Made by a program: the position numbers and the translations under genes. The notes beneath the pieces are model-generated. The model did not search any database. It worked only from the letters and a program-made list of their open reading frames with translations, and was not told where the DNA came from. Below are positions 12,774 through 28,963 of a stretch of DNA of 37,597 nt, one piece after another. Each line of letters starts with the position of its first letter. Positions within the stretch are counted from its first letter, which is position 1. The stretch is from a virus, in the IMG/VR virus record IMGVR_UViG_3300032093_014002, positions 1 through 37,597 of that record. The stretch is one strand, 5' to 3'.

Positions 12774-12782
12774 GGAGACACT

Positions 12783-13394
12783 ATGTTAACAGAAGAACAA
12801 ATTAAGCACGGCTACCCAAACTCAAAGCCGGACATCGTCAAGGCGCTTGTTGAGAGCTTTGAGACCCTCGCGAGCAAGTATGAGATCTCAGGTCTCCGTC
12901 TCGCGCACTTCCTCGCGCAGACCGCGCATGAGTCGGGCGGCTTCCGCGTCATCGAGGAGAACCTCAACTACTCAGCCGATGGACTCATGAAGATTTTCCC
13001 CAAGTACTTCAGGGACAAGGACCCGAACGAATATGCTAGGAAGCCTGAAAAAATTGCGAACGTTGTTTACGCCTCGAGAATGGGTAATGGTGATACTGCT
13101 TCTGGCGACGGCTATAGGTTTCGCGGCCGCGGACTTATCCAACTTACCGGAAAAAGCAACTATACTGGGTTCGCAACTGATTCCGGAGTAAGCGTGGATG
13201 AAGCCGTTGCCTACCTCGCTACGCCGCAGGGCGCGATCGAGTCGGCAGCTTGGTTCTGGAAAAAGAACGGCCTCAACGCTCTTGCCGACAAAGATGACGT
13301 GGTCGCCGTCACGAAGCGCATCAACGGTGGCACCATCGGCCTTGAGGATCGCAAGAAGCACACCGAAGAGTTCAAAGAGATCTTGGGAGTCTAA
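12783..13394 (+). CDS. GH19-type endolysin (chitinase-like muramidase)
   Basis: A 203-residue protein. LAHFLAQTAHESGGF (40-54) contains the probable catalytic glutamate E50. ENLNYSADGLMKIFPKYF (59-76) provides the second acidic residue and the conserved NYS segment. YRFRGRGLIQLTGKSNYT and AAWFWKKNGLN complete the glycoside hydrolase 19 pattern found in phage lysozymes. It would cleave peptidoglycan glycan strands at lysis, or locally at entry if virion-borne. There is no signal peptide, so release would need a holin, which I do not see nearby. A GGAGA ribosome-binding site precedes the ATG. It sits just before the PAAR tip protein, so a tail-associated lysin is also possible. Confidence 0.9.
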   Translation: MLTEEQIKHGYPNSKPDIVKALVESFETLASKYEISGLRLAHFLAQTAHESGGFRVIEENLNYSADGLMKIFPKYFRDKDPNEYARKPEKIANVVYASRMGNGDTASGDGYRFRGRGLIQLTGKSNYTGFATDSGVSVDEAVAYLATPQGAIESAAWFWKKNGLNALADKDDVVAVTKRINGGTIGLEDRKKHTEEFKEILGV

Positions 13395-13397
13395 GAC

Positions 13398-13673
13398 TTG
13401 ACAGCCGCACACAGACAGGATGATCTGAGGGTGTGCGGAGCCACAACCATAGTGACCGGTCAAAGCTCCGTCTTCGTCAATGGAAAGCTTTGGGCGGTCG
13501 ACGGTGATCAGAACAGTCACGTCGGCGGGGCTTTGAATCCCGTCGGCATGACAGTAAAAATAAACAATAAGAAAGTAGTCGTGGTAGGGGATCCCGCGTC
13601 AGCCGACCTTTTGCACCCTCCGCCTCCCACCGACGCCAGCACCGGAAGCGGGAACGTCAACTGCTACGGCTGA
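13398..13673 (+). CDS. gp5.4: PAAR-repeat spike tip protein (gp5.4-like)
   Basis: A 91-residue protein read from TTG with GGGAG 9 bases upstream. The sequence AAHRQDDLRVCGATTIVTGQ, then VFVNGKLWAVDGD, SHVGGALNP and KVVVVGDPA has the three-turn pattern of PAAR proteins, which sharpen the central spike of contractile tails. Several His/Cys residues (H5, C14, H42, H69, C89) could bind the structural metal. T4 gp5.4 is of similar size (97 residues). It is the last gene before the late promoter of the neck operon. The TTG start is preferred because no upstream ATG or GTG with a ribosome-binding site exists in this frame. Confidence 0.75.
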   Translation: MTAAHRQDDLRVCGATTIVTGQSSVFVNGKLWAVDGDQNSHVGGALNPVGMTVKINNKKVVVVGDPASADLLHPPPPTDASTGSGNVNCYG

Positions 13674-13674
13674 T

Positions 13675-13682
13675 TATAAATA
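13675..13682 (+). promoter_or_regulatory. T4-type late promoter box TATAAATA (neck/terminase operon)
   Basis: An exact late -10 match just after the PAAR stop and 21 bases before the gp13 ATG. An AGAGG/GAGGA ribosome-binding site follows. Confidence 0.8.
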
Positions 13683-13702
13683 CCTGAAAGAGGAAATTTA
13701 TA

Positions 13703-14686
13703 ATGGCCACTCCAACGACCAGAGACCAATTCAAAGAGTACTGCCTGCGTAAGCTCGGCAAGCCGGTCATCGAGATCAACGTCGACGACGATCAGGTCGA
13801 CGATCGCATCGACGAGGCGCTCAAATACTACTACGACTATCACTTCGACGGCACCGAGAAGCAGTTCTACCGCCACGTCTTTCAAGCCGGCGACTTCCCA
13901 GACGTAGTCAAGGAGGTTATGGTCTACGACGGAGGCACGGGCTACTCAAACACGGACACTGTCACGATCACCGCGGCGACCGGCGACACGACAGGCACGG
14001 GGGCAACTGCGACGCTCACGACCTACGCGAACGGCACGATTCAATCGATCAACGTCACCGCGAGGGGATCGAACTATAGGCTCGATCCAAACGTATCCAT
14101 CACGACCAGCGGCGGATCGGGCGCGAGCGTACAAGCTTTCAAGGGTGGATACATCACCATCCCACAGAACATCATAGGTGTCGTCAACATCTTCGACATC
14201 GGCGATTACATCGCTACCAACAACATCTTCAACATACGCTACCAGATCGCGTTGAACGACCTGTACACATTAACCTACCAGTCGATGGTTCCCTACTACA
14301 TGGCTTTTCAACACATCCAGCTCCTTGAGCAGCTTCTCGTCGGTAAGCAGCCGATCCGCTACAACAGGAACACGAATCGCTTGTACATCGACGTCAACTG
14401 GAACAAGGTTGAGGCCGGTCAGTACTTGGTCATCGAGGCTTATCAGATCGTCGACCCGACCAAGTTCACGGACGTATGGAACGATCGCTGGCTTCAGAGG
14501 TACGCGACGCAACTCATCAAGAAGCAGTGGGGCACCAACTTGACGAAGTTCAACGGTCTTCAGCTTCCGGGAGGGGTCACCTTCAACGGTGAGAAGATAT
14601 ACAACGACGCCGAAGCTGAGATTGAGAAGCTTGAGAACGAGATGGCGGTGTCCTACTCGTTGCCCGCATACGATATGATCGGATGA
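13703..14686 (+). CDS. gp13: Neck protein gp13 with an inserted beta-repeat domain
   Basis: A 327-residue homologue of T4 gp13 (309 residues), which with gp14 closes the filled head and joins it to the tail. The N-terminus FKEYCLRKLGKPVIEINVDD, then DRIDEALKYYYDYHFDG, and the C-terminal RWLQRYATQLIKKQWGTNL segment are characteristic. Residues about 72-149 look inserted. They form a Gly/Thr-rich segment (YDGGTGYSNTDTVTIT, GTGATATLTT, ARGSNYRLDPNVSITTSGGSG) resembling a beta-repeat found in unrelated phage surface proteins. The conserved frame resumes at ITIPQNIIGVVNIF. It is the first gene of the late neck operon. Confidence 0.88.
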   Translation: MATPTTRDQFKEYCLRKLGKPVIEINVDDDQVDDRIDEALKYYYDYHFDGTEKQFYRHVFQAGDFPDVVKEVMVYDGGTGYSNTDTVTITAATGDTTGTGATATLTTYANGTIQSINVTARGSNYRLDPNVSITTSGGSGASVQAFKGGYITIPQNIIGVVNIFDIGDYIATNNIFNIRYQIALNDLYTLTYQSMVPYYMAFQHIQLLEQLLVGKQPIRYNRNTNRLYIDVNWNKVEAGQYLVIEAYQIVDPTKFTDVWNDRWLQRYATQLIKKQWGTNLTKFNGLQLPGGVTFNGEKIYNDAEAEIEKLENEMAVSYSLPAYDMIG

Positions 14687-14689
14687 TTG

Positions 14690-15421
14690 ATGGCAACCTC
14701 CGTCTTCTTCAACAACTTCAACTCCACCGCTGAGCAGAACCTCATCGAGGACTTGATCATTGAGTCGATCAGGATCTACGGCATCGACGTATACTACATC
14801 CCTAGGACCACGAGCAACCGCGACGACGTCTTCAGGGAGGGTTCATACTCATACAACTCATCCTACTTGATCGAGGCTTACATAAGGAACGTCGACGGCT
14901 TCACCGGAGACGGGGAGTTCTTATCGAAGTTTGGACTGCAGGTCAGGGACCAGATCGTGTTCACGATCGCTCAGAGGACTTTCAAGGCAGAAGTCGGAAA
15001 CTACACGGCCGACGTTCGTCCGAAGGAAGGAGACCTCATCTGGTTTCCATTGACGCGATCGGTGTTTCAGATTAAGAACGCGGACGTCAAGCCTATATTC
15101 TATCAGCTCGGTGCCCTTCAGACCTACGACTTGACCTGCGAGCTCTATGAAGCTAGCAGCGAGACTTTCAACACCGGCATCACCGAGATCGACGGCGTAT
15201 ACAACGCCCTTTCACTTAAGTCTGATGGATACGAGCTTCTCGCTGAGAACGGAAACGTTCTCGTCACTGAATCCGGCGAGAGGATCATCCTTGAGAGCTT
15301 CGACATCGAAGCCATCGACGTGCAAGCTGAGAACGACGTCTATGAGACTGAAGGTCAAGACTTCATCGACTTCACCGAGTTCGATCCGTTCAGTGAAAAG
15401 GCTGGAGGCTATAGAAGCTAA
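14690..15421 (+). CDS. gp14: Neck protein gp14
   Basis: A 243-residue protein matching T4 gp14 (256 residues), the partner of gp13 in the neck. The N-terminus has ATSVFFNNFNSTAEQNLIED, then GIDVYYIPR, DDVFREGSYSYNSSY and GLQVRDQIVFTIAQRTF, all typical of marine gp14. I prefer the ATG at 14690 over the in-frame TTG at 14687, because ATG follows the gp13 stop by 3 bases and gives the usual MATSVFF start. The C-terminal third contains ELLAENGNVLVTESGERI, a small beta motif of unknown use, then an acidic tail. Its stop overlaps the gp15 ATG. Confidence 0.87.
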   Translation: MATSVFFNNFNSTAEQNLIEDLIIESIRIYGIDVYYIPRTTSNRDDVFREGSYSYNSSYLIEAYIRNVDGFTGDGEFLSKFGLQVRDQIVFTIAQRTFKAEVGNYTADVRPKEGDLIWFPLTRSVFQIKNADVKPIFYQLGALQTYDLTCELYEASSETFNTGITEIDGVYNALSLKSDGYELLAENGNVLVTESGERIILESFDIEAIDVQAENDVYETEGQDFIDFTEFDPFSEKAGGYRS

Positions 15422-16233
15422 TGCTCTCAGTCCCATTCTATCACTCGCTTCTTCGCAAATACGTGGTCATATTCGGCACGCTGTTCAACAACATCAAGAT
15501 CGAGAGGCTCGACGCAAACGGAAACGTGGTGACGAGCTTCAAGGTTCCCATCGCCTACGGACCGAGGGAGAAGTTCCTCGCCCGCGTCGAAGCCAACCCG
15601 ACCGGCATAGTTCAGACTGCGGCCATACTTCCAAGGATCGGCTTCGAGATCAGCGGCATAAGGTACGCCAGCGACAGGAAGCTTCAGACCACGATCCCGC
15701 TGTATACCAACCAAAACGTATCGGGCAACAGCGTCCTCAAGAAGGTGTACTCACCCGTTCCATACGACATCGACTTCACCATGTCCATCATGACGAAGCA
15801 GACCGAGGACGCGACTAGGATAGTCGAGCAGATCCTCCCTTACTTCACCCCTGAGTGGACCATATCGGCTCAGCTTCTGGCTGACTTTGAGAACACCACG
15901 GACATCCCGATCGTCATCGGTTCCATCGACATCGAGGATACGTACGCGACTGACTTCACCCAGCGGCGCGCTTTGATCTGGACGATCAACTTCACCATGA
16001 AGGCGTACCTCTACGGTCCGGTGACGAAGGCGAAGCAGATCAAGGTCGCGACTGTCAACTCATTCGCTCCCATGACGGCGAACCTCGCCCTCAACAGGGT
16101 CGTCACCCAGCCGGGACTAGACGCAAACGGAAACCCGACGACGATTCTCGCGGACACCATTCCATACACGTCGATCGATGAGACCGACAACTTCGACTAT
16201 GTGATCACAACTACGGACTTCCCAAGTGGCTGA
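15421..16233 (+). CDS. gp15: Tail sheath stabiliser/tail completion protein gp15
   Basis: A 270-residue protein, close to T4 gp15 (272 residues), which forms the hexameric terminator ring at the head end of the tail and joins the neck. The N-terminus LSVPFYHSLLRKYVVIFGTL, then IAYGPREKFLAR, LPRIGFEISGIRYASDRK and PYDIDFTMSIMTKQTED are strongly diagnostic. It overlaps gp14 by 1 base and gp16 by 8 bases, consistent with co-translation. Confidence 0.92.
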   Translation: MLSVPFYHSLLRKYVVIFGTLFNNIKIERLDANGNVVTSFKVPIAYGPREKFLARVEANPTGIVQTAAILPRIGFEISGIRYASDRKLQTTIPLYTNQNVSGNSVLKKVYSPVPYDIDFTMSIMTKQTEDATRIVEQILPYFTPEWTISAQLLADFENTTDIPIVIGSIDIEDTYATDFTQRRALIWTINFTMKAYLYGPVTKAKQIKVATVNSFAPMTANLALNRVVTQPGLDANGNPTTILADTIPYTSIDETDNFDYVITTTDFPSG

Positions 16234-16606
16234 TAAGAAAGATATCATAGGGCAGTCGCTCAACCTACCCGACATGCCGAGTAAGTCGAGGATAACCGAC
16301 CTGACACCTAAGATCGCGACCGACGACTACGAATTCGCGCGCAGCAACCTATACGACCTCATCAACAAGGGTTCACACGCACTTGAGGACATCATAGACG
16401 TCGCGAAGCAGTCTGAGTCGCCTAGGGCTTTCGAGGTCGTGACGAACTTATTGAAGACGATGGTCGACGCGAACAAAGACCTACTCGAGCTCGCGAAGAA
16501 GCAGAAGCAGCTCGAAGACGTCAAGGACGAGGGTCCAAAGACCGTGAACAACAACCTCTACCTGACGTCGGCAGACCTCTTGAAGATGATAAAGAGCAAT
16601 GAGTGA
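16226..16606 (+). CDS. gp16: Terminase small subunit gp16
   Basis: A 126-residue protein read from GTG inside the gp15 end. T4 gp16 is 164 residues. The central part is helical (LYDLINKGSHALEDIIDVAK, SPRAFEVVTNLLKTMVDANK), which fits the ring-forming oligomerisation core. The end has the common NNNLYLTSADLLKMIK segment preceding the large subunit. It recognises DNA and regulates the gp17 packaging motor. Its stop overlaps the gp17 ATG by 8 bases. Confidence 0.87.
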   Translation: MADKKDIIGQSLNLPDMPSKSRITDLTPKIATDDYEFARSNLYDLINKGSHALEDIIDVAKQSESPRAFEVVTNLLKTMVDANKDLLELAKKQKQLEDVKDEGPKTVNNNLYLTSADLLKMIKSNE

Positions 16607-18206
16607 GATCTACTTAGGTAATAAGAACCTAAAGAGCCGCGACGTAAAGATACCGTTCACCGCGGATCAGGTGCAGGAGTACCTGAAATGTTCGAGAGAC
16701 GTGGAGTACTTTTGTCAGAAGTACGTTAAGATCGTCAACGTCGACCGAGGCCTCATAGACTTCGCACCGTACAAGTACCAAGTCAAGATGTTCGACGTCT
16801 TCGATGCGAACAGGTACACGATCTGTAAGATGCCTCGTCAGGTCGGTAAGACCACGGGCGTCGTAGGCTACCTCCTTCATAAAGTTCTCTTCAACGAGAA
16901 CTACAACGTCGCCGTCCTCGCTAACAAGGAGAGGCAGGCCCGTGAGATCTTGGCTAGGGTTCAACTGGCCTACGAGTGGCTTCCGAAGTGGATGCAGCAG
17001 GGGATAGTCGAGTGGAACAAGGGAAGCATCGAGCTTGAGAACGGGTCGAAGATCCTCGCCTCGTCGACCTCATCGAGCGCGATCCGCGGTCAGTCCTACA
17101 ACCTCATCTACCTAGACGAGTTCGCCTTCGTTCCGCGCAACATTCAAGACCAGTTCTTCGCCTCGGTCTTCCCGACGATATCTTCTGGTCAAACGACTAA
17201 ACTCATCATAACTTCAACGCCGAACGGTATGGACCTCTTCTATAAGATCTGGATCGACTCCGAGCAGGATCGCAACACCTACGCCCGAGTCGACGTACAT
17301 TGGTCGGACGTTCCGGGACGCGACGAGGCTTGGAAAGATCTGATGATCAAGAACACCTCGGTCGATCAATTCAGGCAGGAGTTCGAGTGTGAGTTCCTTG
17401 GGTCGTCGAACACCCTCATCCACCCGTCGGTCTTGTCGAAGCTCGTGTTCTTCCCGCCGCAGACGAACGCGCAGGGAGTCAACGTCTTCGCCGAGCCTAA
17501 GAAGGGTCACCAATACTTCATGACGGTCGACTTGGCCGAGGGTCTCGGTCAGGACAGCTCGGCCTTCACCGTGATAGACGCGACGACAGTGCCGTACGAG
17601 GTGGTCGCGACCTATAAGAACAGCAGCATATCGGAGCTCCTGTTTCCTACCCTAATCATGAACGTGGCCAAGTACTACAACAGCGCTTGGGTCCTCGTTG
17701 AGACGAACATAGGGTCGCAGGTCGTCAACATCCTTCACCAGGACCTTGAGTACGAGAACGTGGTCACGACTAAGACCAGCGGTCGAAAGGGAGTCATGCT
17801 TGGTTCGGGCGGAAGCCAAAGTCGACTCGGCGTCAAGACCACGAAGGTCACGAAGAGGATAGGCTGCTCCAACCTCAAGTCTCTGGTCGAGTCGAATAAG
17901 ATAAAGCTCAACGACTTTGAAGTCATCCAGCAGCTCTCGACCTACGTCGCGGATAAGTCGTCGTTCAACGCCGAAGAAGGCCATCACGACGACTTGGTCA
18001 TGTGCTTGGTCCTGTTCTCATGGATGGTTAGTCAAGAGTACTTCAAGGAATTGTCGGACACCGACGTTCGACAGAGGATCCTAGAGGAGAACGAGAGGCA
18101 GATCGAGGAGAACATGTCTCCCTTCGGATTCCAAGACGACGGTATGCCTGAAGAAGACGTGATGACGGTCTCAGGCGACGAGTTCGACCGCCTGCTTCTA
18201 AACTAG
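16599..18206 (+). CDS. gp17: Terminase large subunit gp17 (packaging ATPase/nuclease)
   Basis: A 535-residue protein (T4 gp17 is 610). The N-terminal ATPase has Walker A MPRQVGKTT (78-86, K84), Walker B LIYLDEFAF (D173, E174) and coupling motif TSTPNG (205-210). The C-terminal RNase-H-like nuclease has D311 in FMTVDLAEG, an acidic residue in VLVETNIGSQ, and GHHDDLVMCL near residue 462, consistent with the metal site that cuts concatemers. It pumps DNA into the prohead through the gp20 portal. The acidic end is separated from the sheath gene by a late promoter, with no obvious terminator hairpin. Confidence 0.96.
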   Translation: MSEIYLGNKNLKSRDVKIPFTADQVQEYLKCSRDVEYFCQKYVKIVNVDRGLIDFAPYKYQVKMFDVFDANRYTICKMPRQVGKTTGVVGYLLHKVLFNENYNVAVLANKERQAREILARVQLAYEWLPKWMQQGIVEWNKGSIELENGSKILASSTSSSAIRGQSYNLIYLDEFAFVPRNIQDQFFASVFPTISSGQTTKLIITSTPNGMDLFYKIWIDSEQDRNTYARVDVHWSDVPGRDEAWKDLMIKNTSVDQFRQEFECEFLGSSNTLIHPSVLSKLVFFPPQTNAQGVNVFAEPKKGHQYFMTVDLAEGLGQDSSAFTVIDATTVPYEVVATYKNSSISELLFPTLIMNVAKYYNSAWVLVETNIGSQVVNILHQDLEYENVVTTKTSGRKGVMLGSGGSQSRLGVKTTKVTKRIGCSNLKSLVESNKIKLNDFEVIQQLSTYVADKSSFNAEEGHHDDLVMCLVLFSWMVSQEYFKELSDTDVRQRILEENERQIEENMSPFGFQDDGMPEEDVMTVSGDEFDRLLLN

Positions 18207-18212
18207 CCTTTT

Positions 18213-18220
18213 TATAAATA
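18213..18220 (+). promoter_or_regulatory. T4-type late promoter box TATAAATA (sheath/tube operon)
   Basis: An exact late -10 match in the gap after gp17, 45 bases before the gp18 ATG. A strong AAAGGAGA ribosome-binding site precedes the ATG. Confidence 0.82.
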
Positions 18221-18265
18221 AGAATACGATTTATTGCTCTAATTTTATGATCAAAGGAGAAAATC

Positions 18266-20293
18266 ATGCCATTTCAAGTAAGTCCTGGCGTCAACGTCTC
18301 TGAAGTCGATCTTACCACCATCGTCCCTGCGGTGTCAACCACTCAGGGTGCGATCGCGGGCGTCTTCAGGTGGGGACCGGTTAACGAGAGAGTTTTGATC
18401 TCTAGCGAAGATGAACTCGTCGCAACTTTCGGACGCCCAACCGCAAACAACTACGAAACTTTCTTCACAGCCTCAAGCTTCTTGGCCTACGGCAATCAGC
18501 TCTACGTCGTTCGCTCTAATGCATCTAATGCCTACAACTCAGTGGCGGCGGTCAACAGCTCAGTCTCTTTCGCCAACACGAGCGTAAGGAACAGCGAATC
18601 ATACGATAACCAAGTTGGAACTTTTGATGCAAACGCATACTGGATCGGTAAGTACGCCGGCTACCAAGGCAACAGCTTGAAGATCTCGACCTGTGAATCG
18701 ACGAACGCCTACTCGGCCACCTTGACCGGTAACTCGGACAGCGTTCCGGCCTTTAGCTTTACGATTAACAGCAACACCCTTCAAATCGTCGTGACTTCAG
18801 CCACTTCGAACACCAACGCCAACACGATGGCCAACACAATCGTCAACCTACTTAACGTTGGCGACTACGTGGTAGCTGGTAACTCAACACTCGGCACTCA
18901 GAACATCAAGATCACCTCGATCGGTGCACCTTCGGTGACTGCGAACTCGACGGTCTACACGGCTCAGGCAAACATCTCGCTTTCGACCACCTATAACTTG
19001 TCGCAGAACGTTAGCTCAAACTCCGTTACCCGTTACTGGGAGTTCTTCAACTTCGTCGATGCCGCACCTGGCACCTCGAGGTACACTTCATCGCTCGGCG
19101 GCGCCGGCGACGAGCTCCATGTCGCGGTTGTCGACGAAGACGGCGTCTTCACCGGCACGGCTGGTCAAGTTCTTGAGATCTGGAAAGGTCTCTCACGCGC
19201 TTCGGATGCAAAGACCGAAGACGGCGCGACGAACTTCTATCAGACCGTTATCAACCAGCAGTCGCAGTACGTCTGGTTCGCCAACGCAAGGGCCGGCGTG
19301 ACTTCAAACACCGCTTCCAACATGACGGCGATCACGGTTGGTCCCTACACCCAGTCGTTCCGCAGCGGGTACGACGGCGTGACTGAGACGACTCAGACTC
19401 TGGCAAACCTGACGGACGCGTATTCCAAGTTCGCCAAGACCGAACAGGTCGACGTCTCGCTCATCCTTACAGGAAAGAATCAGTATGGTGCGCTCGGTGA
19501 GGGTCTCGCAAACTGGATCATCGACAACATCGCTGAAGTTCGCAAGGACTGCATCGTTCTCGTGTCTCCTCCTAAGAGCCTCGTTGTCGCGACTTCGTCC
19601 CACAGCCCAGCTGATTCATTGGTGACCTTCCGCAACGCGGTCCACAACAGCTCATACGCCGTCATGGATTCAGGATACAAGTACATGTACGACAAGTACA
19701 ACGATACGTATCGCTGGGTTCCTTTGAACGGCGACGTCGCTGGAACGATCGTTCGCACCGACAACACGAGGGATCCTTGGTTCTCACCCGCAGGCTTCAA
19801 CCGCGGTCAGATCAAGAACGTTGTGAAGCTCGCCTTCAACCCAGACAAAACCGACAGGGACGTCATCTATAAAGCTGACATCAACCCAGTCGTCAACTTT
19901 CCTGGTGAAGGAACTGTTCTCTACGGTGATAAGACCCTTCTCGGTAAGCCTTCGGCTTTCGATAGGATCAACGTTCGCCGCCTCTTCATCGTCCTCGAGA
20001 AGGCGATCTCGACCTCCGCGAAGTTCACCCTCTTTGAATTCAACGATGAGTTCACTAGGGCGACGTTCCGCAACCTCGTCGAGCCTTACCTCAGGGACAT
20101 TAAGGGCCGTCGCGGCATCTACGACTTCCGAGTCGTGTGTGACGAGACCAACAACACACCTGAGCGCATCGATCGCAACGAGTTCTGGGGCGACATCTAC
20201 ATCAAGCCGGCGCGTTCGATCAACTTCATCCAGCTTAACTTCGTCGCGGTGCGAACCGGAGTTCAGTTCGATGAGATCGTCGGTAGGGTATAA
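18266..20293 (+). CDS. gp18: Tail sheath protein gp18
   Basis: A 675-residue protein (T4 gp18 is 659). The N-terminus FQVSPGVNVSEVDLTTIVPA, then GAIAGVFRWGPVNERVLISS and FGRPTANNYETFFTASSFLA, is the standard sheath start. The C-terminal core with PAGFNRGQIKNVVKLAFNP, NPVVNFPGEGTVLYGDKT and FDRINVRRLFIVLEKAI is the most conserved part of the contractile sheath fold. The variable surface domain is in the middle (about 100-300) and is Asn/Ser/Thr-rich. It polymerises around the gp19 tube and contracts on infection. It is the first gene after a late promoter with a strong ribosome-binding site, as expected for a high-copy protein. Confidence 0.96.
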   Translation: MPFQVSPGVNVSEVDLTTIVPAVSTTQGAIAGVFRWGPVNERVLISSEDELVATFGRPTANNYETFFTASSFLAYGNQLYVVRSNASNAYNSVAAVNSSVSFANTSVRNSESYDNQVGTFDANAYWIGKYAGYQGNSLKISTCESTNAYSATLTGNSDSVPAFSFTINSNTLQIVVTSATSNTNANTMANTIVNLLNVGDYVVAGNSTLGTQNIKITSIGAPSVTANSTVYTAQANISLSTTYNLSQNVSSNSVTRYWEFFNFVDAAPGTSRYTSSLGGAGDELHVAVVDEDGVFTGTAGQVLEIWKGLSRASDAKTEDGATNFYQTVINQQSQYVWFANARAGVTSNTASNMTAITVGPYTQSFRSGYDGVTETTQTLANLTDAYSKFAKTEQVDVSLILTGKNQYGALGEGLANWIIDNIAEVRKDCIVLVSPPKSLVVATSSHSPADSLVTFRNAVHNSSYAVMDSGYKYMYDKYNDTYRWVPLNGDVAGTIVRTDNTRDPWFSPAGFNRGQIKNVVKLAFNPDKTDRDVIYKADINPVVNFPGEGTVLYGDKTLLGKPSAFDRINVRRLFIVLEKAISTSAKFTLFEFNDEFTRATFRNLVEPYLRDIKGRRGIYDFRVVCDETNNTPERIDRNEFWGDIYIKPARSINFIQLNFVAVRTGVQFDEIVGRV

Positions 20294-20305
20294 TAGGAGC
20301 TAAAG

Positions 20306-20860
20306 ATGGCATTTTCAATCAACGACATTAGGGCTCAACTTACTCTCGGTGGCGCTCGCCCAGCACTCTTTCAAGTCACCATCACGAACCCAGTCTCGGC
20401 CATCGCCGACCTCAAGGTTCCATTCCTCACGGTGAGGGCGGAGATTCCGGCCTCAACCATAGGCAACATCGCAGTTCCATACTTCGGCCGCAAGATCTAC
20501 GTGGCCGGAGACCGCACCTTCGCGCCGTGGACGGTCACAGTCATGAACGACGAAGACTTCCTCATCCGCAACGCGATGGAACAGTGGAACAACTCGATCA
20601 ACGCCTACGAAGGCAACATCAACAAGCTTGGCTCGGGAGCTCCTGCGCTCTATAAGTCTCAAGCTACGGTGACTCAATTCGGTAAAGCCGGAGAAGTGCT
20701 CAGGACCTACCAGTTCAACGGCATCTTCCCCGTCGAAGTCTCGAATATCGGTCTTGACTGGAACGCTCAAGACCAGCTGGAGGAGTTCAACGTAACCTTC
20801 CTCTACGACAACTTCGAGGTGGTCGGCGGCATCACCGGCAACGCCGGCGGCGCGATCTAA
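20306..20860 (+). CDS. gp19: Tail tube protein gp19
   Basis: A 184-residue protein (T4 gp19 is 163). The sequence RPALFQVTITNP, then VRAEIPASTIGNIAVPYFGR, DRTFAPWTVTVMNDEDF and TYQFNGIFPVEVSNIGLDW is typical of the beta-barrel tube subunit. Hexamers stack to form the DNA channel inside the sheath. AGGAG precedes the ATG. A hairpin follows the stop, overlapping the next late promoter. Confidence 0.95.
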   Translation: MAFSINDIRAQLTLGGARPALFQVTITNPVSAIADLKVPFLTVRAEIPASTIGNIAVPYFGRKIYVAGDRTFAPWTVTVMNDEDFLIRNAMEQWNNSINAYEGNINKLGSGAPALYKSQATVTQFGKAGEVLRTYQFNGIFPVEVSNIGLDWNAQDQLEEFNVTFLYDNFEVVGGITGNAGGAI

Positions 20861-20871
20861 CGACTTTGATG

Positions 20872-20904
20872 GAGCCGCTATAAATAAACCTATAGCGGCT
20901 CTTT
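20872..20904 (+). terminator. Hairpin terminator-like element after gp19
   Basis: An 11-bp perfect stem, GAGCCGCTATA (20872-20882) with TATAGCGGCTC (20891-20901), has an 8-base loop and is followed by TTT. The tract is short, so termination may be partial. The late box TATAAATA (20879-20886) lies within the left arm and loop, so terminator and promoter share bases. Confidence 0.6.
20879..20886 (+). promoter_or_regulatory. T4-type late promoter box TATAAATA (portal)
   Basis: An exact late -10 match, 32 bases before the gp20 ATG. It is embedded in the stem-loop at 20872-20901. Confidence 0.8.
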
Positions 20905-20918
20905 CATAGGAAATCATT

Positions 20919-22478
20919 ATGCAGTTATTTGGTTTTGAGATCAAGAGAAAAGAAGAGCAGCCTCTTGAGTCCTTCGCTCCCGAGATAAAAGACGATGGTG
21001 CAGTGGTCGTTGCCGCAGGAGGCATGTACGGCACCTACATCGATCTTGATGGGACCGCGAGGACGGAGGCTGAGCTCGTTTCTAAGTACAGGGAGATCTC
21101 ACTCGAAGCCGAGATCGAGAGAGCCGTTGACGACATCGTCAATGAAGCCATCGACACGGACTCGGACGAAGTGGTCAAGATCAACCTCGACAACATCGAA
21201 TACAGCGACGACGTAAAGAATAAGATCCGCGAGGAGTTCGACCACATCCTTGAGATGTTCAACTTCCAGAACGAAGCCTATGAGATCTTTAAGCGCTGGT
21301 ACGTCGACGGTCGCCTCTACTACCACGTAATCATCGATGAGAAGAATCCTAGGGCCGGAATCCAAGAGATCCGATACCTTGATCCGCGAAAGATCCGTAA
21401 GGTTCGCGAGGTCAAGAAGGAGCCTAAGGGTCCCATCACCATTCAAAAGACGAAGCGCGAGTACTTCGTGTACTCAGATCGCTCGTTCGTAGCCGCCCCA
21501 GGAAACGCTGGATTGGCGCAGGACAACAACTCAACCGGCGGCCTTCGCATAGCCACCGACTCGATCCTTCACGTCACATCTGGACTGATGGACAAGAACA
21601 ACCAGATGGTCTACTCATACCTGCAGAAAGCCATCAAGCCTCTCAATCAACTTAGGACGCTCGAAGATGCTACAGTCATCTATCGTATTAGTCGCGCTCC
21701 TGAGCGCCGTATTTTCTATATTGATGTCGGTAATCTACCGAAGGTGAAGGCCGAGCAGTACCTTCGCGATATGATGGTTCGCCATAAGAATCGTCTCGTC
21801 TACGACGCTGTCACCGGCGAGGTTCGCGACGATCGCAAGTACATGACGATGCTTGAAGACTACTGGCTCCCCCGTCGTGAGGGCAACCGTGGAACGGAGA
21901 TCACAACCCTTCCAGCCGGTCAGAACCTCGGTGAGATGCAGGACGTCGAGTACTTTCAGATGAAGCTGTTTCGCTCTCTCAACGTTCCGGTCTCAAGGCT
22001 CAACACCGAGACGGCGAACGTATTGGGCAGGGCCTCGGAGATCTCACGCGATGAGGTCAAGTTCACCAAGTTCGTTGGTCGCCTGCGCCGTAGGTTCTCA
22101 ATGCTCTTCCTTGAAGCTCTCAAGAAGCAGCTCATCCTCAAGGGCGTCTGCTCGGAGGAGGATTGGTCGGAGCTTCAGCAGCAGATCAACTTCAACTTCA
22201 ACAAGGACAATCACTTCGAGGAGTTCAAGGAGATCGAGGTGATGCAAGGAAGGTTGAACCTTCTCAACCAGATGATGCCGTACATCGGTCGCTACTACTC
22301 AGACCTCTGGATCCGTAAGAACATCCTCAAGATGGATGAGAAGGAGATCGCGGACATGATGGATGAGATGGCGGGTGAGAAAGTTCCACTCACTACACCT
22401 ATTGAGCCGGGACAACCGTCACCACCGCCGCCGATCGCCAACAAGCCGAACATCCCAGGAACCGGCGAACAGTACTAA
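20919..22478 (+). CDS. gp20: Portal vertex protein gp20
   Basis: A 519-residue protein (T4 gp20 is 524). It forms the dodecameric portal through which DNA enters and leaves. Diagnostic segments are DIVNEAIDTDSDEVVKINL, YEIFKRWYVDGRLYYHVII, ISRAPERRIFYIDVGNLPK and LPRREGNRGTEITTLPAGQN, then SRLNTETANVLGRASEISRD near the C-terminus. The end is Pro-rich. Bases 21664-21735 use T-ending codons unlike the surrounding gene and fall on the most conserved segment. It stands after its own late promoter and is followed by another late box. Confidence 0.96.
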   Translation: MQLFGFEIKRKEEQPLESFAPEIKDDGAVVVAAGGMYGTYIDLDGTARTEAELVSKYREISLEAEIERAVDDIVNEAIDTDSDEVVKINLDNIEYSDDVKNKIREEFDHILEMFNFQNEAYEIFKRWYVDGRLYYHVIIDEKNPRAGIQEIRYLDPRKIRKVREVKKEPKGPITIQKTKREYFVYSDRSFVAAPGNAGLAQDNNSTGGLRIATDSILHVTSGLMDKNNQMVYSYLQKAIKPLNQLRTLEDATVIYRISRAPERRIFYIDVGNLPKVKAEQYLRDMMVRHKNRLVYDAVTGEVRDDRKYMTMLEDYWLPRREGNRGTEITTLPAGQNLGEMQDVEYFQMKLFRSLNVPVSRLNTETANVLGRASEISRDEVKFTKFVGRLRRRFSMLFLEALKKQLILKGVCSEEDWSELQQQINFNFNKDNHFEEFKEIEVMQGRLNLLNQMMPYIGRYYSDLWIRKNILKMDEKEIADMMDEMAGEKVPLTTPIEPGQPSPPPPIANKPNIPGTGEQY

Positions 22479-22481
22479 TTT

Positions 22482-22489
22482 TATAAATA
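22482..22489 (+). promoter_or_regulatory. T4-type late promoter box TATAAATA (prohead core genes)
   Basis: An exact late -10 match starting 4 bases after the gp20 stop and ending 22 bases before the ATG at 22512. Confidence 0.8.
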
Positions 22490-22511
22490 CTATGAGATTT
22501 TGGAGGATTTT

Positions 22512-22751
22512 ATGACTGAACTTTCTGATATTTTTCACTCGGCGTTCACAAAAGACGCCGTCGGACTCAAAGCGGCCGTCGACGCAGCGCTTTCAGCGCG
22601 CTCGCAGGAAGCTGTATCAAACATCACCGCCGACGTCGCGGCGAGCATGTTTGGTATGACCGTCGGCGATGAAGTCGAAGTAGACTCCTCCGACACGGAT
22701 TCAAACATCGAAGACTCAAGTCAGGAAGAACAAACCGATGAAGCTCTATGA
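22512..22751 (+). CDS. gp67: Prohead core protein gp67-like
   Basis: A 79-residue protein in the T4 gene-67 position (between 20 and 21), with a length nearly the same as T4 gp67 (80). The N-terminal half is Ala-rich helix (FTKDAVGLKAAVDAALSARS) and the C-terminal third is strongly acidic (EVEVDSSDTDSNIEDSSQEE), as in gp67. gp67 is a scaffold component degraded by gp21. I place the start at the ATG at 22512 because GGAGGA ends 5 bases before it. An in-frame TTG at 22500 would swallow that site. It overlaps the next gene by 14 bases. Confidence 0.65.
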   Translation: MTELSDIFHSAFTKDAVGLKAAVDAALSARSQEAVSNITADVAASMFGMTVGDEVEVDSSDTDSNIEDSSQEEQTDEAL

Positions 22752-24723
22752 CAAACTTAAGAAAAGCATAACGGAAGTTCAAGAGCCTCTCTCACAGGGC
22801 GAGAAGAACTTCAAAGCCCTTCACAACCCAGACTTCAAGAACCTCGTTCCCGGCGTCACCGATCAGGAGCACCTGTTCAAGGGTTCACCTCAGCGCAAGG
22901 ATCCTAAGACCGCGTCCTATGAAGACAGCGAGTCGGCCCAAGCCTATGATAAGACTTTGAACGTTGAAGAAGAAGCTGAGATCGATGAAGCTCGGTCGAA
23001 TCTCTACATCGGCACCGTTCACAAGGACGACCCCGACTATGAGAAGAAAGTCGGCGAGATGAAGAAGAAGGCCGTCGGCGGACACCGCGTTCGCGGTCGC
23101 GCCCCGCTCGAAAAGTTCAAGCACCTCTATAAGAAGGGCGGAGAGCTTTATACCATGACTTCACAGGACGTTAAGCCTGAGCACAGCGCACGGGTCGATG
23201 TCTACTCAAGGAAGCCGATGAAGAACGAAGAGGTCGAGCAGGTCGAAGAAGAGCATCAGTACATTGAAGTAAAGAACAAGCACACCGGCGCAATTAAGCA
23301 CGTTAAAGTTCACCCCTCAAAAGCTTTCGCGGCTCTGAATCAATATAAAGATAAGAACAACACCGCTCGCATCGTGAATAAGAAGCCGATGAAGGAAGAC
23401 GTTGAGCAGATCGACGAAGTCATCACAAAGAAGACTCCGCTCGCTAAAGTCATCTCAGACTTCGTTCACAGCAAGAACCCTAAATTCGCCGGTAAGTCTA
23501 AGAAGCAGCGCATGAAGCAGGCCCTCGGAGCCTACTACGCCATGCAGCGCAACGAAGACGTTGACACGGAGAGCGACGACTACGACTTTGAAGGCATCAT
23601 GGCGAAGACCGAGCTCTCGGCGCTTCGCGATAAAGCCGACAAGCTCATCTCTATGATCAACGATTCAGACGACCTTGAAGCTTGGGTTCAGTCAAAGATC
23701 TCATACGCCAAGTCGCAGCTCGACGGCGTCTACGACTATATGACCTACAGCGGTGAGCATAAGCCTCAGAAGCCGATGGATCAGACTTCACCGATGGCCG
23801 CCAACTACGCGAACTTCATGAACCGCATGGGTGAGGAGTTCGTCGTTGAGAAGAAGGGCGACGACGAAGATGAGTCGGACCGCGCGGCGAACAAGAACAT
23901 CATCAACCAGATGCGTAAAGCTCCGGTCGACGGCATGCATAAGATCACCTTTGAGAACGGCAAGAAGCACATGATCGAGCCTAAGCACGTCGCGAAGGCT
24001 TTGGAAGTTCACGCGAACACTCCGGTCGCCAAGGGCGCGAAGGAAGAGGTTCAGAACGCCCTCGGTCGCTCGCACGAAGACTTCATGCACGTCGTCAAGC
24101 ACGGTAAAGCTCCGGCTGTGAAGCCTAAGCCCAAGGTGTCGCTCGGCACGATGCGCAAGGAAGAGGTTGATATGCCCACCCGCGAAAGTGGGAAGAAGGC
24201 CCGTCAAGCTATGACGATGATCGATCCAACCACCGGTCGCGTTAAGGTGAAGTACTTCACCCCAGCCCGCAAGGAGATCAAGGTCACCGCCGAGGAGCTC
24301 AAGGGCAACCAACATAAGATCGACGCGAACAAGAACGGCAAGATCGACGGCCAAGACTTTAAGATCCTTCGCGGCAAGAAAAAGGTTCAAGAAGCCGAGG
24401 AGATGACGGCAGCCAACGTCGCGAAAGCTGCCGCCTCTCAGACTCAGCACGGCGTAGTCGGCAAGGAGAACATGCAGCAGGACAGCATCGACAAGATGAA
24501 GTCCGATCCGTTGGCCTCAAAGGAGAAGGTTACCCTTCCGCCGACACAGGGCAACAAGCCGATCGGTGGCGACACACAGACCCATGCAAACGTCGCTGAA
24601 CAGCTGTTAAATAAGTTGTATGATACTTTATCGGAAGAAAACAAAGAGAAGTTTGAACAGATGCTTGAGACCGACGAAGGTGTTCAGTATCTCTTAGACT
24701 TCGCAAGAGAGCAGGGACTTTGA
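22738..24723 (+). CDS. Large modular prohead-region protein with EF-hand-like loop
   Basis: A 661-residue, very charged, Lys/Glu-rich protein in the place of T4 gene 68. I see several separable modules: LEKFKHLYKKGGELYTMTSQ (about 124-143), VKNKHTGAIKHVKVHPSKAF (178-197), FVHSKNPKFAGKSKKQRMKQ (242-261), MAKTELSALRDKADKLISMI (288-307) followed by LEAWVQSKISYAKSQLDGVY, and IDANKNGKIDGQDF (528-541). The last fits an EF-hand/dockerin loop with ligands D529, N531, N533, K535, D537 and D540. Acidic linkers such as EEVEQVEEE and EDVEQIDEV separate the modules and contain I/V-x-E sequences like prohead protease cleavage sites. The module LEAWVQSKI is familiar from other marine T4-like phages. A scaffold or core role is inferred from position. 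No catalytic site is seen. Confidence 0.7.
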   Translation: MKLYDKLKKSITEVQEPLSQGEKNFKALHNPDFKNLVPGVTDQEHLFKGSPQRKDPKTASYEDSESAQAYDKTLNVEEEAEIDEARSNLYIGTVHKDDPDYEKKVGEMKKKAVGGHRVRGRAPLEKFKHLYKKGGELYTMTSQDVKPEHSARVDVYSRKPMKNEEVEQVEEEHQYIEVKNKHTGAIKHVKVHPSKAFAALNQYKDKNNTARIVNKKPMKEDVEQIDEVITKKTPLAKVISDFVHSKNPKFAGKSKKQRMKQALGAYYAMQRNEDVDTESDDYDFEGIMAKTELSALRDKADKLISMINDSDDLEAWVQSKISYAKSQLDGVYDYMTYSGEHKPQKPMDQTSPMAANYANFMNRMGEEFVVEKKGDDEDESDRAANKNIINQMRKAPVDGMHKITFENGKKHMIEPKHVAKALEVHANTPVAKGAKEEVQNALGRSHEDFMHVVKHGKAPAVKPKPKVSLGTMRKEEVDMPTRESGKKARQAMTMIDPTTGRVKVKYFTPARKEIKVTAEELKGNQHKIDANKNGKIDGQDFKILRGKKKVQEAEEMTAANVAKAAASQTQHGVVGKENMQQDSIDKMKSDPLASKEKVTLPPTQGNKPIGGDTQTHANVAEQLLNKLYDTLSEENKEKFEQMLETDEGVQYLLDFAREQGL

Positions 24724-24971
24724 TGCCTAATTCAATCAAACCAATCGGCGCTGAAAGATCCATTGCTTCGGCAAACAACGTCGCTTCGGCCAAGCTCGTA
24801 AGGGTGATCAACACCGGAGCCGCCGCGGTGCTCAACTTCGCCTATGCGAACGCCACGGTATACGCCAACGTCACGGTCACGAACACAGAGTTCGTGGTCG
24901 TTGAGAAGCAACCAACCGACACACTCACCGGTGCAAATATGCTCGCGACCCCGCTTGCGTATACACACTGA
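24723..24971 (+). CDS. Small beta-rich protein in capsid operon
   Basis: An 82-residue protein starting at the ATG of TGATG, which overlaps the upstream stop. An in-frame TTG at 24720 is less likely. The sequence LVRVINTGAAAVLNFAY and TNTEFVVVEKQPTDTLTG suggests a compact beta-sandwich. Similar short proteins occur near head genes in marine T4-like phages and could be capsid accessory or decoration proteins. It is only 10 bases from gp21. No enzyme motif is present. Confidence 0.6.
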   Translation: MPNSIKPIGAERSIASANNVASAKLVRVINTGAAAVLNFAYANATVYANVTVTNTEFVVVEKQPTDTLTGANMLATPLAYTH

Positions 24972-24981
24972 GGAAACTAAG

Positions 24982-25641
24982 ATGAAGCTCATAGCAGAAC
25001 TAAACGAATCGGTCAAGGTCATAACCGAAGAGGGAGTGGAGGGCAAGAAGAACCTCTACATCCACGGACCGTTCATCCAAACTGAGGTAAAGAACCGCAA
25101 CGGTCGCATGTATCGTCGCGAGTCGGTCGCCCGAGAAGTCAACAGGTACAACGAGGAGTACGTCAACAAGGGACGCGCACTCGGTGAGCTCGGCCATCCC
25201 GATGGTCCCTCATTGAACCTCGATCGCGTCTCACACAAGATCGTCTCGCTGGTGCCGGAAGGCAACGACTTCATAGGTAAGGCGCAGATCCTCTCCACCC
25301 CGATGGGTGAGATCGCCCGCAACCTCATCGAGTCCGGCGTCCAGCTCGGAGTCTCGACTCGCGGCATGGGTTCACTCAAAGAAGTGAACGGCGTCCAAGT
25401 TGTACAGGACGACTTCTACCTCGCCACGGCAGCCGACATAGTCGCCGACCCGTCCGCCCCGAACGCCTTCGTAAACGGCATCATGGAGGGCGTAGATTGG
25501 GTCTGGGACAACGGCCTGCTCAAGGCTCAGGAGCTGGAGAAAGCAAAGAAACACATTGAAGAGTCCGCCCGCAAGGTGAACAAGAAGGAGCTCGAAGAGG
25601 CTCAACTCCGGATCTTCAAGCATTTCGTTTCAAATCTTTGA
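24982..25641 (+). CDS. gp21: Prohead maturation protease gp21
   Basis: A 219-residue protein (T4 gp21 is 212). The sequence LYIHGPFIQTEVKNRNGRMY is the conserved N-terminal strand. GELGHPDGP contains the catalytic His (H72), and LGVSTRGMGS contains the catalytic Ser (S126), as in herpes-type/S78-like prohead proteases. It cleaves scaffold proteins and the gp23 propiece after I/L-x-E, then destroys itself. The open frame extends upstream to 24844, but the ATG at 24982 with GAGGAAA upstream gives the conserved MKLIAEL start. It is followed by a late promoter. Confidence 0.93.
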   Translation: MKLIAELNESVKVITEEGVEGKKNLYIHGPFIQTEVKNRNGRMYRRESVAREVNRYNEEYVNKGRALGELGHPDGPSLNLDRVSHKIVSLVPEGNDFIGKAQILSTPMGEIARNLIESGVQLGVSTRGMGSLKEVNGVQVVQDDFYLATAADIVADPSAPNAFVNGIMEGVDWVWDNGLLKAQELEKAKKHIEESARKVNKKELEEAQLRIFKHFVSNL

Positions 25642-25645
25642 GTTT

Positions 25646-25653
25646 TATAAATA
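25646..25653 (+). promoter_or_regulatory. T4-type late promoter box TATAAATA (scaffold gp22)
   Basis: An exact late -10 match 5 bases after the gp21 stop and 27 bases before the gp22 ATG, which has an AGGAG ribosome-binding site. Confidence 0.8.
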
Positions 25654-25679
25654 CTTTAAGAAAAAACAGGAGTATTCTA

Positions 25680-26738
25680 ATGTCTGAAGAAAACTTGAAC
25701 CACGAAGATCTTGAAATCGACACCCAAGTGGCGGTCGAAGAAGAGACTTCAAACGCAGGCACGATCGCCGCAAAGCCGACCGTGTCTCGCTCAGACCTTA
25801 TCAGGAACATGGTTTCATACGCGACGAAGATGGGTTCGGAAGAGCTCGCTGACTTCGTTGCCCGCATCGGCTCAGCTGAAGAGATGACCTCTTCAAACGA
25901 CGCCAACTACGCTTCATCCGTGCAGGTCACAGGCGACGCGTCTGCAAAGAACAAGGGATCGATCAAGTCAGCCGGCGCGCCGGAAGAAGCAGCTAAGGCG
26001 CTTCCTTCGGCTGTCAAGGAAGACCTCGCCCTCGTGTTCGGCAACTCGCTCGATCTCTCGGAAGAGTTCAAAGATAAGATCTCGACCCTCTTCGAAGCCG
26101 CGGTCATGACCCGCGTCGACCTCGAGAGGGTTCGCATCGAAGAAGAAGTCGCCGCTGAAGCTGAACAAGCCCTCGAGTCGCTCAAGGAAGAGATGGAGTC
26201 GAACATCGACGCCTACCTCAACTACGCAGTGGCTGAGTGGCTCGAGCAGAACAAGCTCGCGGTTGAGAACAACATCAAGGTTGAGATGGCTGAGTCTTTC
26301 TTTGCCGGCCTCCACAACCTCTTCACTGAACACTACATCGACATCCCGAACGAAGAAGTCAGCGTCGTTGAGTCGCTGATGGCTGAAGTCGAGGAGTTGA
26401 AGTCTCAAGTCAATGAGACGACTGAAAAGAACATCGAGCTCACTAAGATCGTTTCCCAGAAGGAAGTGTCCGAGTCGGCCGCGAAGCTTGCGGAAGGCAT
26501 GACAGACACCCAGAAGGAAAAGTTCACCAAGTTGATTGAAGCAGTTGACTATTCTTCCGTTGAAGAGTTCAACAAGAAAGCTAACATCATCAAGGAAACT
26601 TACTTTGCTAAAAGTGACGTCAAGGTGAATGCTGATCAGCTTCTCAGCGAATCAGTCGATGAGCCCGCGAAGCCGGAACATGTGGCACCTGAGATGCAGG
26701 CCTACGTTCAGTCGCTTTCTAGAACAATTAAGAAGTAA
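25680..26738 (+). CDS. gp22: Prohead scaffolding core protein gp22
   Basis: A 352-residue protein (T4 gp22 is 269), highly acidic and mostly helical. It includes RVDLERVRIEEEVAAEAEQA and EEMESNIDAYLNYAVAEWLE, then QNKLAVENNIKVEMAESFFA, which match the gp22 core region. A coiled-coil segment around VESLMAEVEELKSQVNETTE follows. The ATG at 25680 is preferred over an upstream in-frame ATG at 25638, which lies before the late promoter. It forms the inner scaffold on which gp23 assembles and is degraded by gp21. Confidence 0.9.
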   Translation: MSEENLNHEDLEIDTQVAVEEETSNAGTIAAKPTVSRSDLIRNMVSYATKMGSEELADFVARIGSAEEMTSSNDANYASSVQVTGDASAKNKGSIKSAGAPEEAAKALPSAVKEDLALVFGNSLDLSEEFKDKISTLFEAAVMTRVDLERVRIEEEVAAEAEQALESLKEEMESNIDAYLNYAVAEWLEQNKLAVENNIKVEMAESFFAGLHNLFTEHYIDIPNEEVSVVESLMAEVEELKSQVNETTEKNIELTKIVSQKEVSESAAKLAEGMTDTQKEKFTKLIEAVDYSSVEEFNKKANIIKETYFAKSDVKVNADQLLSESVDEPAKPEHVAPEMQAYVQSLSRTIKK

Positions 26739-26743
26739 TTTTG

Positions 26744-26751
26744 GATAAATA
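26744..26751 (+). promoter_or_regulatory. Late promoter box GATAAATA (major capsid)
   Basis: It fits the NATAAATA late motif used in T4-like marine phages, with G at the first base. It lies 27 bases before the gp23 ATG, and GAAAGGAGA provides a strong ribosome-binding site. Confidence 0.65.
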
Positions 26752-26778
26752 ATTAGAACCCCTCGAAAGGAGACAACA

Positions 26779-28155
26779 ATGGAAACCTTCAGCATTAAAG
26801 AAGAGTTGCTTAATAAGTGGAAGCCCGTGCTCGAGCACGGTGACCTTCCTTCTATTAAGGACGCTCATCGTCGCCGTGTCACCGCGCAGATCCTCGAGAA
26901 CACCGAGATCGCGATCAAGGAACAGGCGATGTTCAATCCACAGTCGTTGTTCGAAACTTCACCGACCAACTCTGTCGGCACCGGCGGCTACGCTGGCGCA
27001 GGCGGCACTGGCGTTGCTGGTTACGACCCGATCCTCATCTCTCTCGTTCGTCGCGCGATGCCTAACCTCATCGCATACGACATCTGCGGCGTCCAGCCGA
27101 TGACCGGTCCTACCGGCCTCATCTTCGCGATGCGCGCAAACTACGCCAACTCGACCGCTCGTACAACCGACGAAGCCTTGTACAACGAAGCGAACACCGC
27201 GTTCGCTTCACCTGGCATCTCCTCGGCCAACACGATCGGCAACAAGAACGTCGGTACAGTTCCTGGCACAACCGCTCAGACGACCGTCCTCGCCAACAGC
27301 AACATCTACAACTTTGCTGGCGGCGCGAACACCCAACAGGCTGAAGCGCTCGGTTCGACCTCGAACGTTGCCTTCGCTGAAATGGCGTTCTCGATCGACA
27401 AGCAGACCGTGACCGCGAAGTCACGCGCTCTCAAGGCAGAGTACACCATGGAACTCGCACAAGACCTTAAGGCGATCCATGGCCTCGACGCTGAGACAGA
27501 ACTCGCGAACATCCTTCAGTCGGAAATCCTCGCGGAAATCAACCGTGAAGTTGTTCGCTCGATCAACATCACCGCGGTCCGCGGCGCCAACACCGGCACC
27601 ACGACTCAAGGCATCTTCGACCTCGACACCGACTCAAACGGTCGTTGGTCGGTTGAAAAGTTCAAGGGCTTGATGTTCCAGATCGAACGCGAAGCCAACC
27701 AAATCGCGAAGGACACCCGTCGCGGTAAGGGTAACGTCATCATCTGCTCGTCGGACGTCGCTTCGGCACTCCAGATGGCTGGCGTTCTTGACTACGCACC
27801 TGCTCTCAACAGCAACAACCTTCAGGTTGACGACACAGGCAACACCTTCGCCGGTGTGCTTAACGGCCGCTTCCGTGTCTACATCGACCCATACACCACC
27901 GGCAACTATATGACCGTTGGTTACAAGGGTGCCAACGTGTTCGACGCTGGTCTCTTCTACTGCCCATACGTTCCTCTCCAGATGGTTCGTGCGGTCGGTC
28001 AAGATACCTTCCAGCCGAAGATTGGCTTCAAGACTCGTTACGGCATCGTACCGAACCCCTTCGCAAAGGGTGCAACCGCTGCTTCGGCAACCGGCGCGCT
28101 CGAAGAAGACACGAACGTCTACTATCGTCGTGTTCTCGTGTCGAACCTTCTCTGA
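26779..28155 (+). CDS. gp23: Major capsid protein gp23
   Basis: A 458-residue protein (T4 gp23 is 521). The N-terminus ETFSIKEELLNKWKPVLEH, then LPSIKDAHRRRVTAQILENT, the central PNLIAYDICGVQPMTGPTGL and the C-terminal FQPKIGFKTRYGIVPNPF are diagnostic of the HK97-fold T4-type capsid protein. An L-x-E site (SLFE, E59) lies where the gp21 propiece cut is expected. The exact cut is inferred. Its own late promoter and a strong terminator downstream fit very high expression. Confidence 0.97.
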   Translation: METFSIKEELLNKWKPVLEHGDLPSIKDAHRRRVTAQILENTEIAIKEQAMFNPQSLFETSPTNSVGTGGYAGAGGTGVAGYDPILISLVRRAMPNLIAYDICGVQPMTGPTGLIFAMRANYANSTARTTDEALYNEANTAFASPGISSANTIGNKNVGTVPGTTAQTTVLANSNIYNFAGGANTQQAEALGSTSNVAFAEMAFSIDKQTVTAKSRALKAEYTMELAQDLKAIHGLDAETELANILQSEILAEINREVVRSINITAVRGANTGTTTQGIFDLDTDSNGRWSVEKFKGLMFQIEREANQIAKDTRRGKGNVIICSSDVASALQMAGVLDYAPALNSNNLQVDDTGNTFAGVLNGRFRVYIDPYTTGNYMTVGYKGANVFDAGLFYCPYVPLQMVRAVGQDTFQPKIGFKTRYGIVPNPFAKGATAASATGALEEDTNVYYRRVLVSNLL

Positions 28156-28187
28156 TAATAAACAGAAGAAGCTACTTAAAGAACTTA

Positions 28188-28213
28188 GGGGACCCTTCGG
28201 GGTCCCCTTTTTT
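28188..28213 (+). terminator. Strong intrinsic terminator after gp23
   Basis: An 8-bp GC-rich stem, GGGGACCC/GGGTCCCC, has a stable TTCG tetraloop (28196-28199) and is followed by six T (28208-28213). It ends the rightward late transcript at the convergent junction. The stop codon of the minus-strand gene begins inside the T tract. Confidence 0.93.
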
Positions 28214-28505
28214 ATTCCACGACTACTCTCTTCCAGTCGCCGTCTTTACTCTTCAGCCATAGGTTTCCATCTTCACCCACTGACATTGATACCTGTTTAT
28301 TCGGATCATATTGAGGAAAGTTGCCAATCATCATAGAAGAACTATTTCCAAGATACATCATTGTACCATCTTTCTTCTTAGCTCCCATTAGAGTCATTTT
28401 TACTGAATCTGCTAATGGTTCCCCCGTCGGCTTCTCCTTAGCAAACGCTTCAACCGCCATCAAAGGCGATAGGGCAAACATTCCAAATAGACTACGTCTG
28501 TTCAT
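28212..28505 (-). CDS. Small exported protein with twin-arginine-like signal peptide
   Basis: A 97-residue protein. The N-terminus MNRRSLFGMFALSPLMAVEA has paired arginines (R3, R4) before a hydrophobic stretch and an Ala-rich cleavage region (EAFAKE), resembling a Tat or Sec signal. The mature part contains VKMTLMGAKKKDGTMMYLGN and MSVGEDGNLWLKSKDGDWKR, probably a small beta-rich domain. I do not recognise a family. Its start overlaps the stop of the upstream gene at 28502-28505 (ATGA), so the two are co-expressed from the promoter at 28964-28991. Confidence 0.65.
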   Translation of the reverse strand: MNRRSLFGMFALSPLMAVEAFAKEKPTGEPLADSVKMTLMGAKKKDGTMMYLGNSSSMMIGNFPQYDPNKQVSMSVGEDGNLWLKSKDGDWKRVVVE

Positions 28506-28933: not shown

Positions 28934-28963
28934 GGTCTATCCCTGTTTTAATCTCATAGTATG

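Follow-up and report, generated by a model that had tools for sequence, protein, structure and literature searches.

The promoter box and hairpin between gp19 and gp20

The window, by which we mean the whole stretch of 37,597 nucleotides analysed, is a 37.6-kb record of an uncultured T4-like phage whose genes we identified from PHROGs. We found no near-identical DNA for it in named phages, and gp20 of the best named relative is 57% identical; searches of the window returned zero Rfam matches and no tRNAs. The junction studied here lies among plus-strand genes for the gp18 tail sheath (18266-20293; phrog_23, 9e-127), the gp19 tail tube (20306-20860; phrog_45, 2e-50) and the gp20 portal (20919-22478; phrog_213, 1.5e-201). 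A plus-strand late-promoter box, TATAAATA, lies 5' of gp18 (18213-18220) and is the presumed origin of the RNA that reaches the junction; the hairpin at this box is not strong (score 10.5). Between gp19 and gp20, the plus strand reads as a left arm GAGCCGCTATA (20872-20882), an 8-nt loop AATAAACC (20883-20890) and a right arm TATAGCGGCTC (20891-20901), then TTTC, a weak U tract directly 3' of the stem (20902-20905), and the gp20 Shine-Dalgarno AGGA (20908-20911), which is outside the stem. A perfect 11-bp stem had been claimed for this position and was borne out; folding recovers the arms and the loop, and the arms also appear in the inverted-repeat listing and show compensatory changes in relatives.

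The gp20 late-promoter box, an exact 8-bp match to the T4-type sequence TATAAATA, occupies 20879-20886 on the plus strand and, as had been proposed, is shared between left arm and loop, with four bases at the top of the left arm and four forming the first half of the loop. Its expected reader, a gp55-type late sigma factor, is encoded in the window (33142-33708, plus strand; phrog_234, 6e-58), and gp55 is encoded in 10 of 11 related records. The plus strand of the gp19-gp20 gap carries no sigma-70 promoter among those listed. Elsewhere in the late region, a perfect sigma-70 consensus promoter (12/12) lies on the minus strand at 28964-28991, directed toward an ORF at 28502-28933, and a radical SAM ORF (28992-29618) lies on the same strand. 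The window also encodes a second protein of the tail-tube family (30694-31254; phrog_45, 8e-31), beside UvsY, UvsW and gp55, with a GATAAATA box at 30682, just 5' of the gene.

The hairpin with its nested promoter box is real and conserved, and it exceeds what chance would produce. RNA of 20850-20930 folds at -27.3 kcal/mol (z = -4.76), a stability reached by 0 of 200 shuffles, and the hairpin alone, with its GC-containing stem, folds at -17.8 kcal/mol. Among the 25 listed of 43 inverted repeats with arms within 30 nt of each other, no other with a true loop is as long. Seven YATAAATA boxes occur in the window and only that of gp20 sits in a strong hairpin (31.5, the next scoring 15.0); in the 157-kb record of a near relative, 0.13% of random positions have a stem score of at least 25. 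Across records or part-records holding 83 such boxes in all, the strongest late-box hairpin was at the gp20 box in seven of seven. The few other late-box hairpins that score moderately are AT-rich, and several are palindromes of two facing boxes. Such facing pairs in near-palindromes occur at window 13675-13702 and in two relatives (G001:C1:53667-53691, locus L087; G002:C1:3021-3049, locus L093); their start sites would lie almost back to back, making the two promoters mutually exclusive.

Conservation, covariation and recurrence

Four scans together gave 307 loci with gp20 relatives, 301 of which held the gp20 N terminus; once fragments without the gene start had been dropped, 171 were distinct with at least 60 nt upstream, some of them near-duplicates, leaving 40 distinct 70-nt hairpin regions. 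By the stem-score rule the box lies in a hairpin at 46 of the 171 loci. Within the window's clade, defined by gp20 at least 68% identical, the arrangement follows gp19 in all 47 distinct regions, 45 by the score rule and two by inspection, these two being L015, in which the loop is longer, and L021, in which the hairpin still lies directly after gp19. Only one of the 124 regions outside the clade, L071, has it. The clade forms one branch of the gp20 tree (SH-aLRT 99; 35 rows, 34 labelled), and gp19-gp20 is a fixed gene junction within it. In L021, an inserted ORF with a NUMOD3 match (L021:1510-2171) separates the nested hairpin from gp20 and would now be under the control of the nested promoter.

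The original prediction had looked to compensatory changes in relatives as a check, and these are present: the stem is conserved, with such changes in 9 of 13 pairs. They were scored in 39 clade regions aligned with MAFFT without fitting to structure; the alignment excludes L021 and, as it lies outside the clade, L071. RNAalifold recovered the stem from this alignment unaided, with compensatory changes in all nine pairs it predicted. When the 13-pair structure was imposed, 93.4% of cells could pair, versus 79.8% in shuffles and 34-64% for structures slid along the alignment, and 73 cells were changed on both sides, versus 18.9 in shuffles. The upper pairs hardly covary because the box itself is invariant, ATAAATA being identical across all 39 regions. 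G.T oppositions on the plus strand outnumber A.C oppositions 20 to 5 in columns 17-28, or 20 to 8 when the outermost column is included, counts that ignore kinship; this excess points to RNA of the plus strand as the selected molecule.

The strand bias bears on the earlier suggestion that a hairpin in the nontemplate DNA strand influences gp55 access, and on a DNA-level device in which such a hairpin, or a cruciform, would expose the box to gp55 or conceal it. Two features would suit such a device: the box sits at the apex without exception, and the strands of this segment separate as the promoter opens. However, the wobble changes favour one strand, the extent to which the box is paired differs among clade members, and no comparable hairpin accompanies the other late boxes in these genomes. 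The effect on gp55 access was therefore not borne out, and we regard a DNA-level device as highly improbable.

We also examined the junction in 27 named phages (19 and a further 8), a sample that is not random since the last eight were picked as DNA relatives of KARL-1. In six Acinetobacter phages (KARL-1, PhT2, Melin, ZZ1, Ac42 and 133), the box extends from the left arm into the loop of a stem 12-15 bp long. The geometry is that of the window's clade, yet the stems are unrelated to those of the clade, fall into three mutually unrelated sequences and lack a U tract. In the ZZ1 paper, a search by term turned up neither late promoters nor hairpins. T4, Thanatos-2, PspYZU05 and Klebsiella 5N have a separate hairpin followed by the box; the cyanophages S-RIM2 and S-BM3 have short hairpins around it; and DLP6, phiM12, Cr30 and Vibrio D525 have no box at the junction. 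In RB43 the order is reversed, with the late box 5' of the hairpin (L349:257-312), so that RNA from its own promoter would begin with a leader holding the entire hairpin. Because nesting is absent from the other Straboviridae examined, and the Acinetobacter phages share the geometry on unrelated stems, nesting probably arose more than once.

Predicted start register and a possible 3' end of the tail message

In T4, late transcription starts 13 nt after the first base of the box. Applied here, this rule predicts a start near 20892 in the window and 0-5 nt inside the right arm in all 28 unique hairpins, so RNA from the nested promoter is predicted to hold the right arm only and to be unable to form the hairpin, which RNA arriving from upstream could form. 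The register itself is a prediction of the rule, which is consistent with the account, in a passage of PMC2988020, of T4 late promoters as a box about one helical turn 5' of the start site without a -35 element.

One alternative is a translational switch, in which folding of upstream RNA into the hairpin would conceal the ribosome site of gp20 and RNA from gp20's own promoter would leave it free. T4 gene e is a known case, its late promoter lying within the 5' strand of the hairpin (described in PMC3014915). The gp20 Shine-Dalgarno, however, lies outside the stem, and its predicted openness is the same in own-promoter and upstream RNA (0.407 versus 0.410; n = 40, p = 0.68). Masking of the gp20 ribosome site is unsupported in the clade, as the site is not in a helix and is equally open in both RNA types, and we consider a switch of this kind very unlikely there. 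The neighbouring clade (L049-L076) has a different layout: the last 60 nt 5' of gp20 hold a weak terminator-like hairpin and then a second hairpin, which carries the late box in its right arm together with a potential anti-Shine-Dalgarno sequence. Weak masking may exist in that clade (openness 0.65 versus 0.53, 14 of 21, p = 0.01).

Whether the hairpin ends the upstream message is where the word "terminator", as used in the original prediction, becomes uncertain. By a d'Aubenton-Carafa-type score, 15 of 40 clade regions are positive, with a median of -6 and a value of -10.8 for the window, which 0.07% of random hairpins reach. The gp23 terminator, our yardstick, is far stronger, at +49 in the window (28187-28208) and +37 to +57 in seven of seven records in which gp23 was found. 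A generic terminator scan of 12000-30000 did not return the junction hairpin, and its 16 hits versus 18.0 expected from shuffles were no excess. A T/C tract does follow the stem: at least three of the first five nucleotides are T in 39 of 40 regions, the 200 cells holding 149 T, 42 C, 9 A and 0 G. The T-tract score tops most positions of the same locus (a median of 0.5% are as high), although this comparison favours the tract, since the stem end was placed wherever the score was highest. Ahead of the Shine-Dalgarno, T content is 5.0 of 12 at gp20 versus 5.2 at other late genes (4 versus 23 sites), and the tract may therefore be no more than the usual context of a leader.

The outgroups, from which 23 distant regions (gp20 less than 52% identical) were omitted, give a second comparison. 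Among 100 regions examined, 98 had some hairpin and 60 had one at -12 kcal/mol or better; eight of these 60 exceeded the terminator threshold. The median tail score was 2.03 for outgroup hairpins versus 3.20 for the clade, and in many outgroups the hairpin stands in the gap without a late box and without a U tract. Across the 100 regions, those with a late box scored better as terminators than those without (p = 0.003, kinship ignored).

These comparisons are also where the main rival, protection from decay, has its footing. On that account, the hairpin terminates nothing; it shields gp18-gp19 RNA against exonucleases at its 3' side once the RNA has been cleaved or terminated further on, and the promoter is nested in it only because the gap is short. 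The stable outgroup hairpins, with their shorter T tracts and often promoterless gaps, fit this well, as do the Acinetobacter phages, which keep the geometry without a U tract. The T/C tract in nearly all clade members speaks against it, and we hold an mRNA-stability element alone to be possible but rather doubtful. The hairpin is most likely a leaky 3'-end element for gp18-gp19 RNA, acting as a partial terminator, an exonuclease block or both, and any termination at it is likely partial. The original prediction, that the same bases end the sheath/tube transcript and start the portal transcript, stood as to the shared bases, the conserved stem and the predicted starts in the right arm, and was supported in part as to termination.

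Our preferred reading is that the gp20 late promoter lies inside an intercistronic RNA hairpin, so that one stretch of DNA ends the tail message and starts the portal message, and we put its probability at roughly 0.55. RNA from the gp18 promoter would carry both arms and fold 3' of gp19, giving a defined 3' end; in the clade, most such ends would come from leaky intrinsic termination at the short T/C tract, and the hairpin would contribute as a barrier to 3'-to-5' decay. At the nested box, polymerase brought in by gp55 would start at the border of loop and right arm, and the resulting RNA, having no left arm, would escape termination and offer the ribosome site of gp20 within a short leader. 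Use of the nested promoter, formation of the 3' end and the effect on the gp19:gp20 ratio are inferred.

Under another account, a hairpin and a promoter of ordinary kinds would overlap through selection for a short gap, without coupling. T4 and Thanatos-2, which keep both parts side by side, lend it some credit, and it does not contradict a function for the hairpin itself. It leaves unexplained, however, the fixed register and the recurrence in another lineage, and appears unlikely. Under a further reading, polymerase that releases gp18-gp19 RNA might stay on the DNA atop the gp20 promoter and restart with gp55, so that tail transcription feeds portal synthesis. The predicted release point lies about 10-17 nt 3' of the nested start, and retention and restart after termination are shown for E. 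coli polymerase in vitro in PMC6978322 and PMC6978380. We think such a restart quite unlikely; if true, repeated nesting at gp19-gp20 would reflect selection for coupling, not compaction.

Under the preferred reading, in which one stretch closes the tail message and opens the portal message, the arrangement would be of use. A T4-like particle needs about a hundred or more tail-tube and sheath subunits and only 12 portal subunits. For neighbouring genes with such unequal demand, placing the promoter of one inside the hairpin that ends the message of the other would be a compact means of separation, and the earlier idea that the junction separates the high-copy tail genes from the portal is plausible. 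That the layout recurs in different branches suggests that they have a need in common here, and the cultivable Acinetobacter phages with the same layout make the arrangement testable, including restart of polymerase on the spot.

Relation to known promoter and hairpin designs

In the open literature, surveyed as titles, abstracts and passages with subscription papers outside its scope, a late promoter inside a gp19-gp20 hairpin is not described. PeSL (promoter-early stem-loop) cassettes, attributed to Arbiol et al. in 2010, reportedly combine an early promoter and a stem-loop in mobile intergenic cassettes, and would share with the junction a promoter and stem-loop in one intergenic unit. We rejected identity with PeSL, given the late box, the lack of a listed sigma-70 promoter on the plus strand of the gap and the fixed junction.

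Intrinsic terminators of the T4 type provide another parallel. One is predicted after gene 23 in six of six T4-like genomes, according to a passage of PMC1524935, and the junction hairpin resembles this type in its GC-containing stem and position between late genes and, less certainly, in its T-rich tail. It differs from the gp23 terminator of the same genomes in its long A-rich loop, set by the box, its short tail and its much lower predicted strength. The mobE terminator of T4-like phages, as described in part of PMC2988022, terminates about 30% of transcription ahead of a gene with its own promoter, and was proposed to set the ratio of the two products. The junction shares with it a weak, here putative, terminator 5' of a gene with its own promoter; at mobE, in contrast, terminator and promoter are at separate places.

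The nearest known design is that of T4 e and I-TevI, in which, according to a section of PMC3014915, a late promoter lies in the DNA coding for the 5' part of an inhibitory RNA hairpin; soc and 49 are said there to have such inhibitory hairpins as well. The likeness is that the late box coincides with, or lies within, the 5' portion of a hairpin which upstream RNA alone can form and which RNA from the gene's own promoter escapes. In e and I-TevI, the hairpin masks the ribosome site of a gene kept silent early, whereas at the junction the ribosome site lies outside the stem and the hairpin follows a high-copy late gene, making 3'-end formation the likelier effect. The nesting at gp19-gp20 is a variant of this T4 design.
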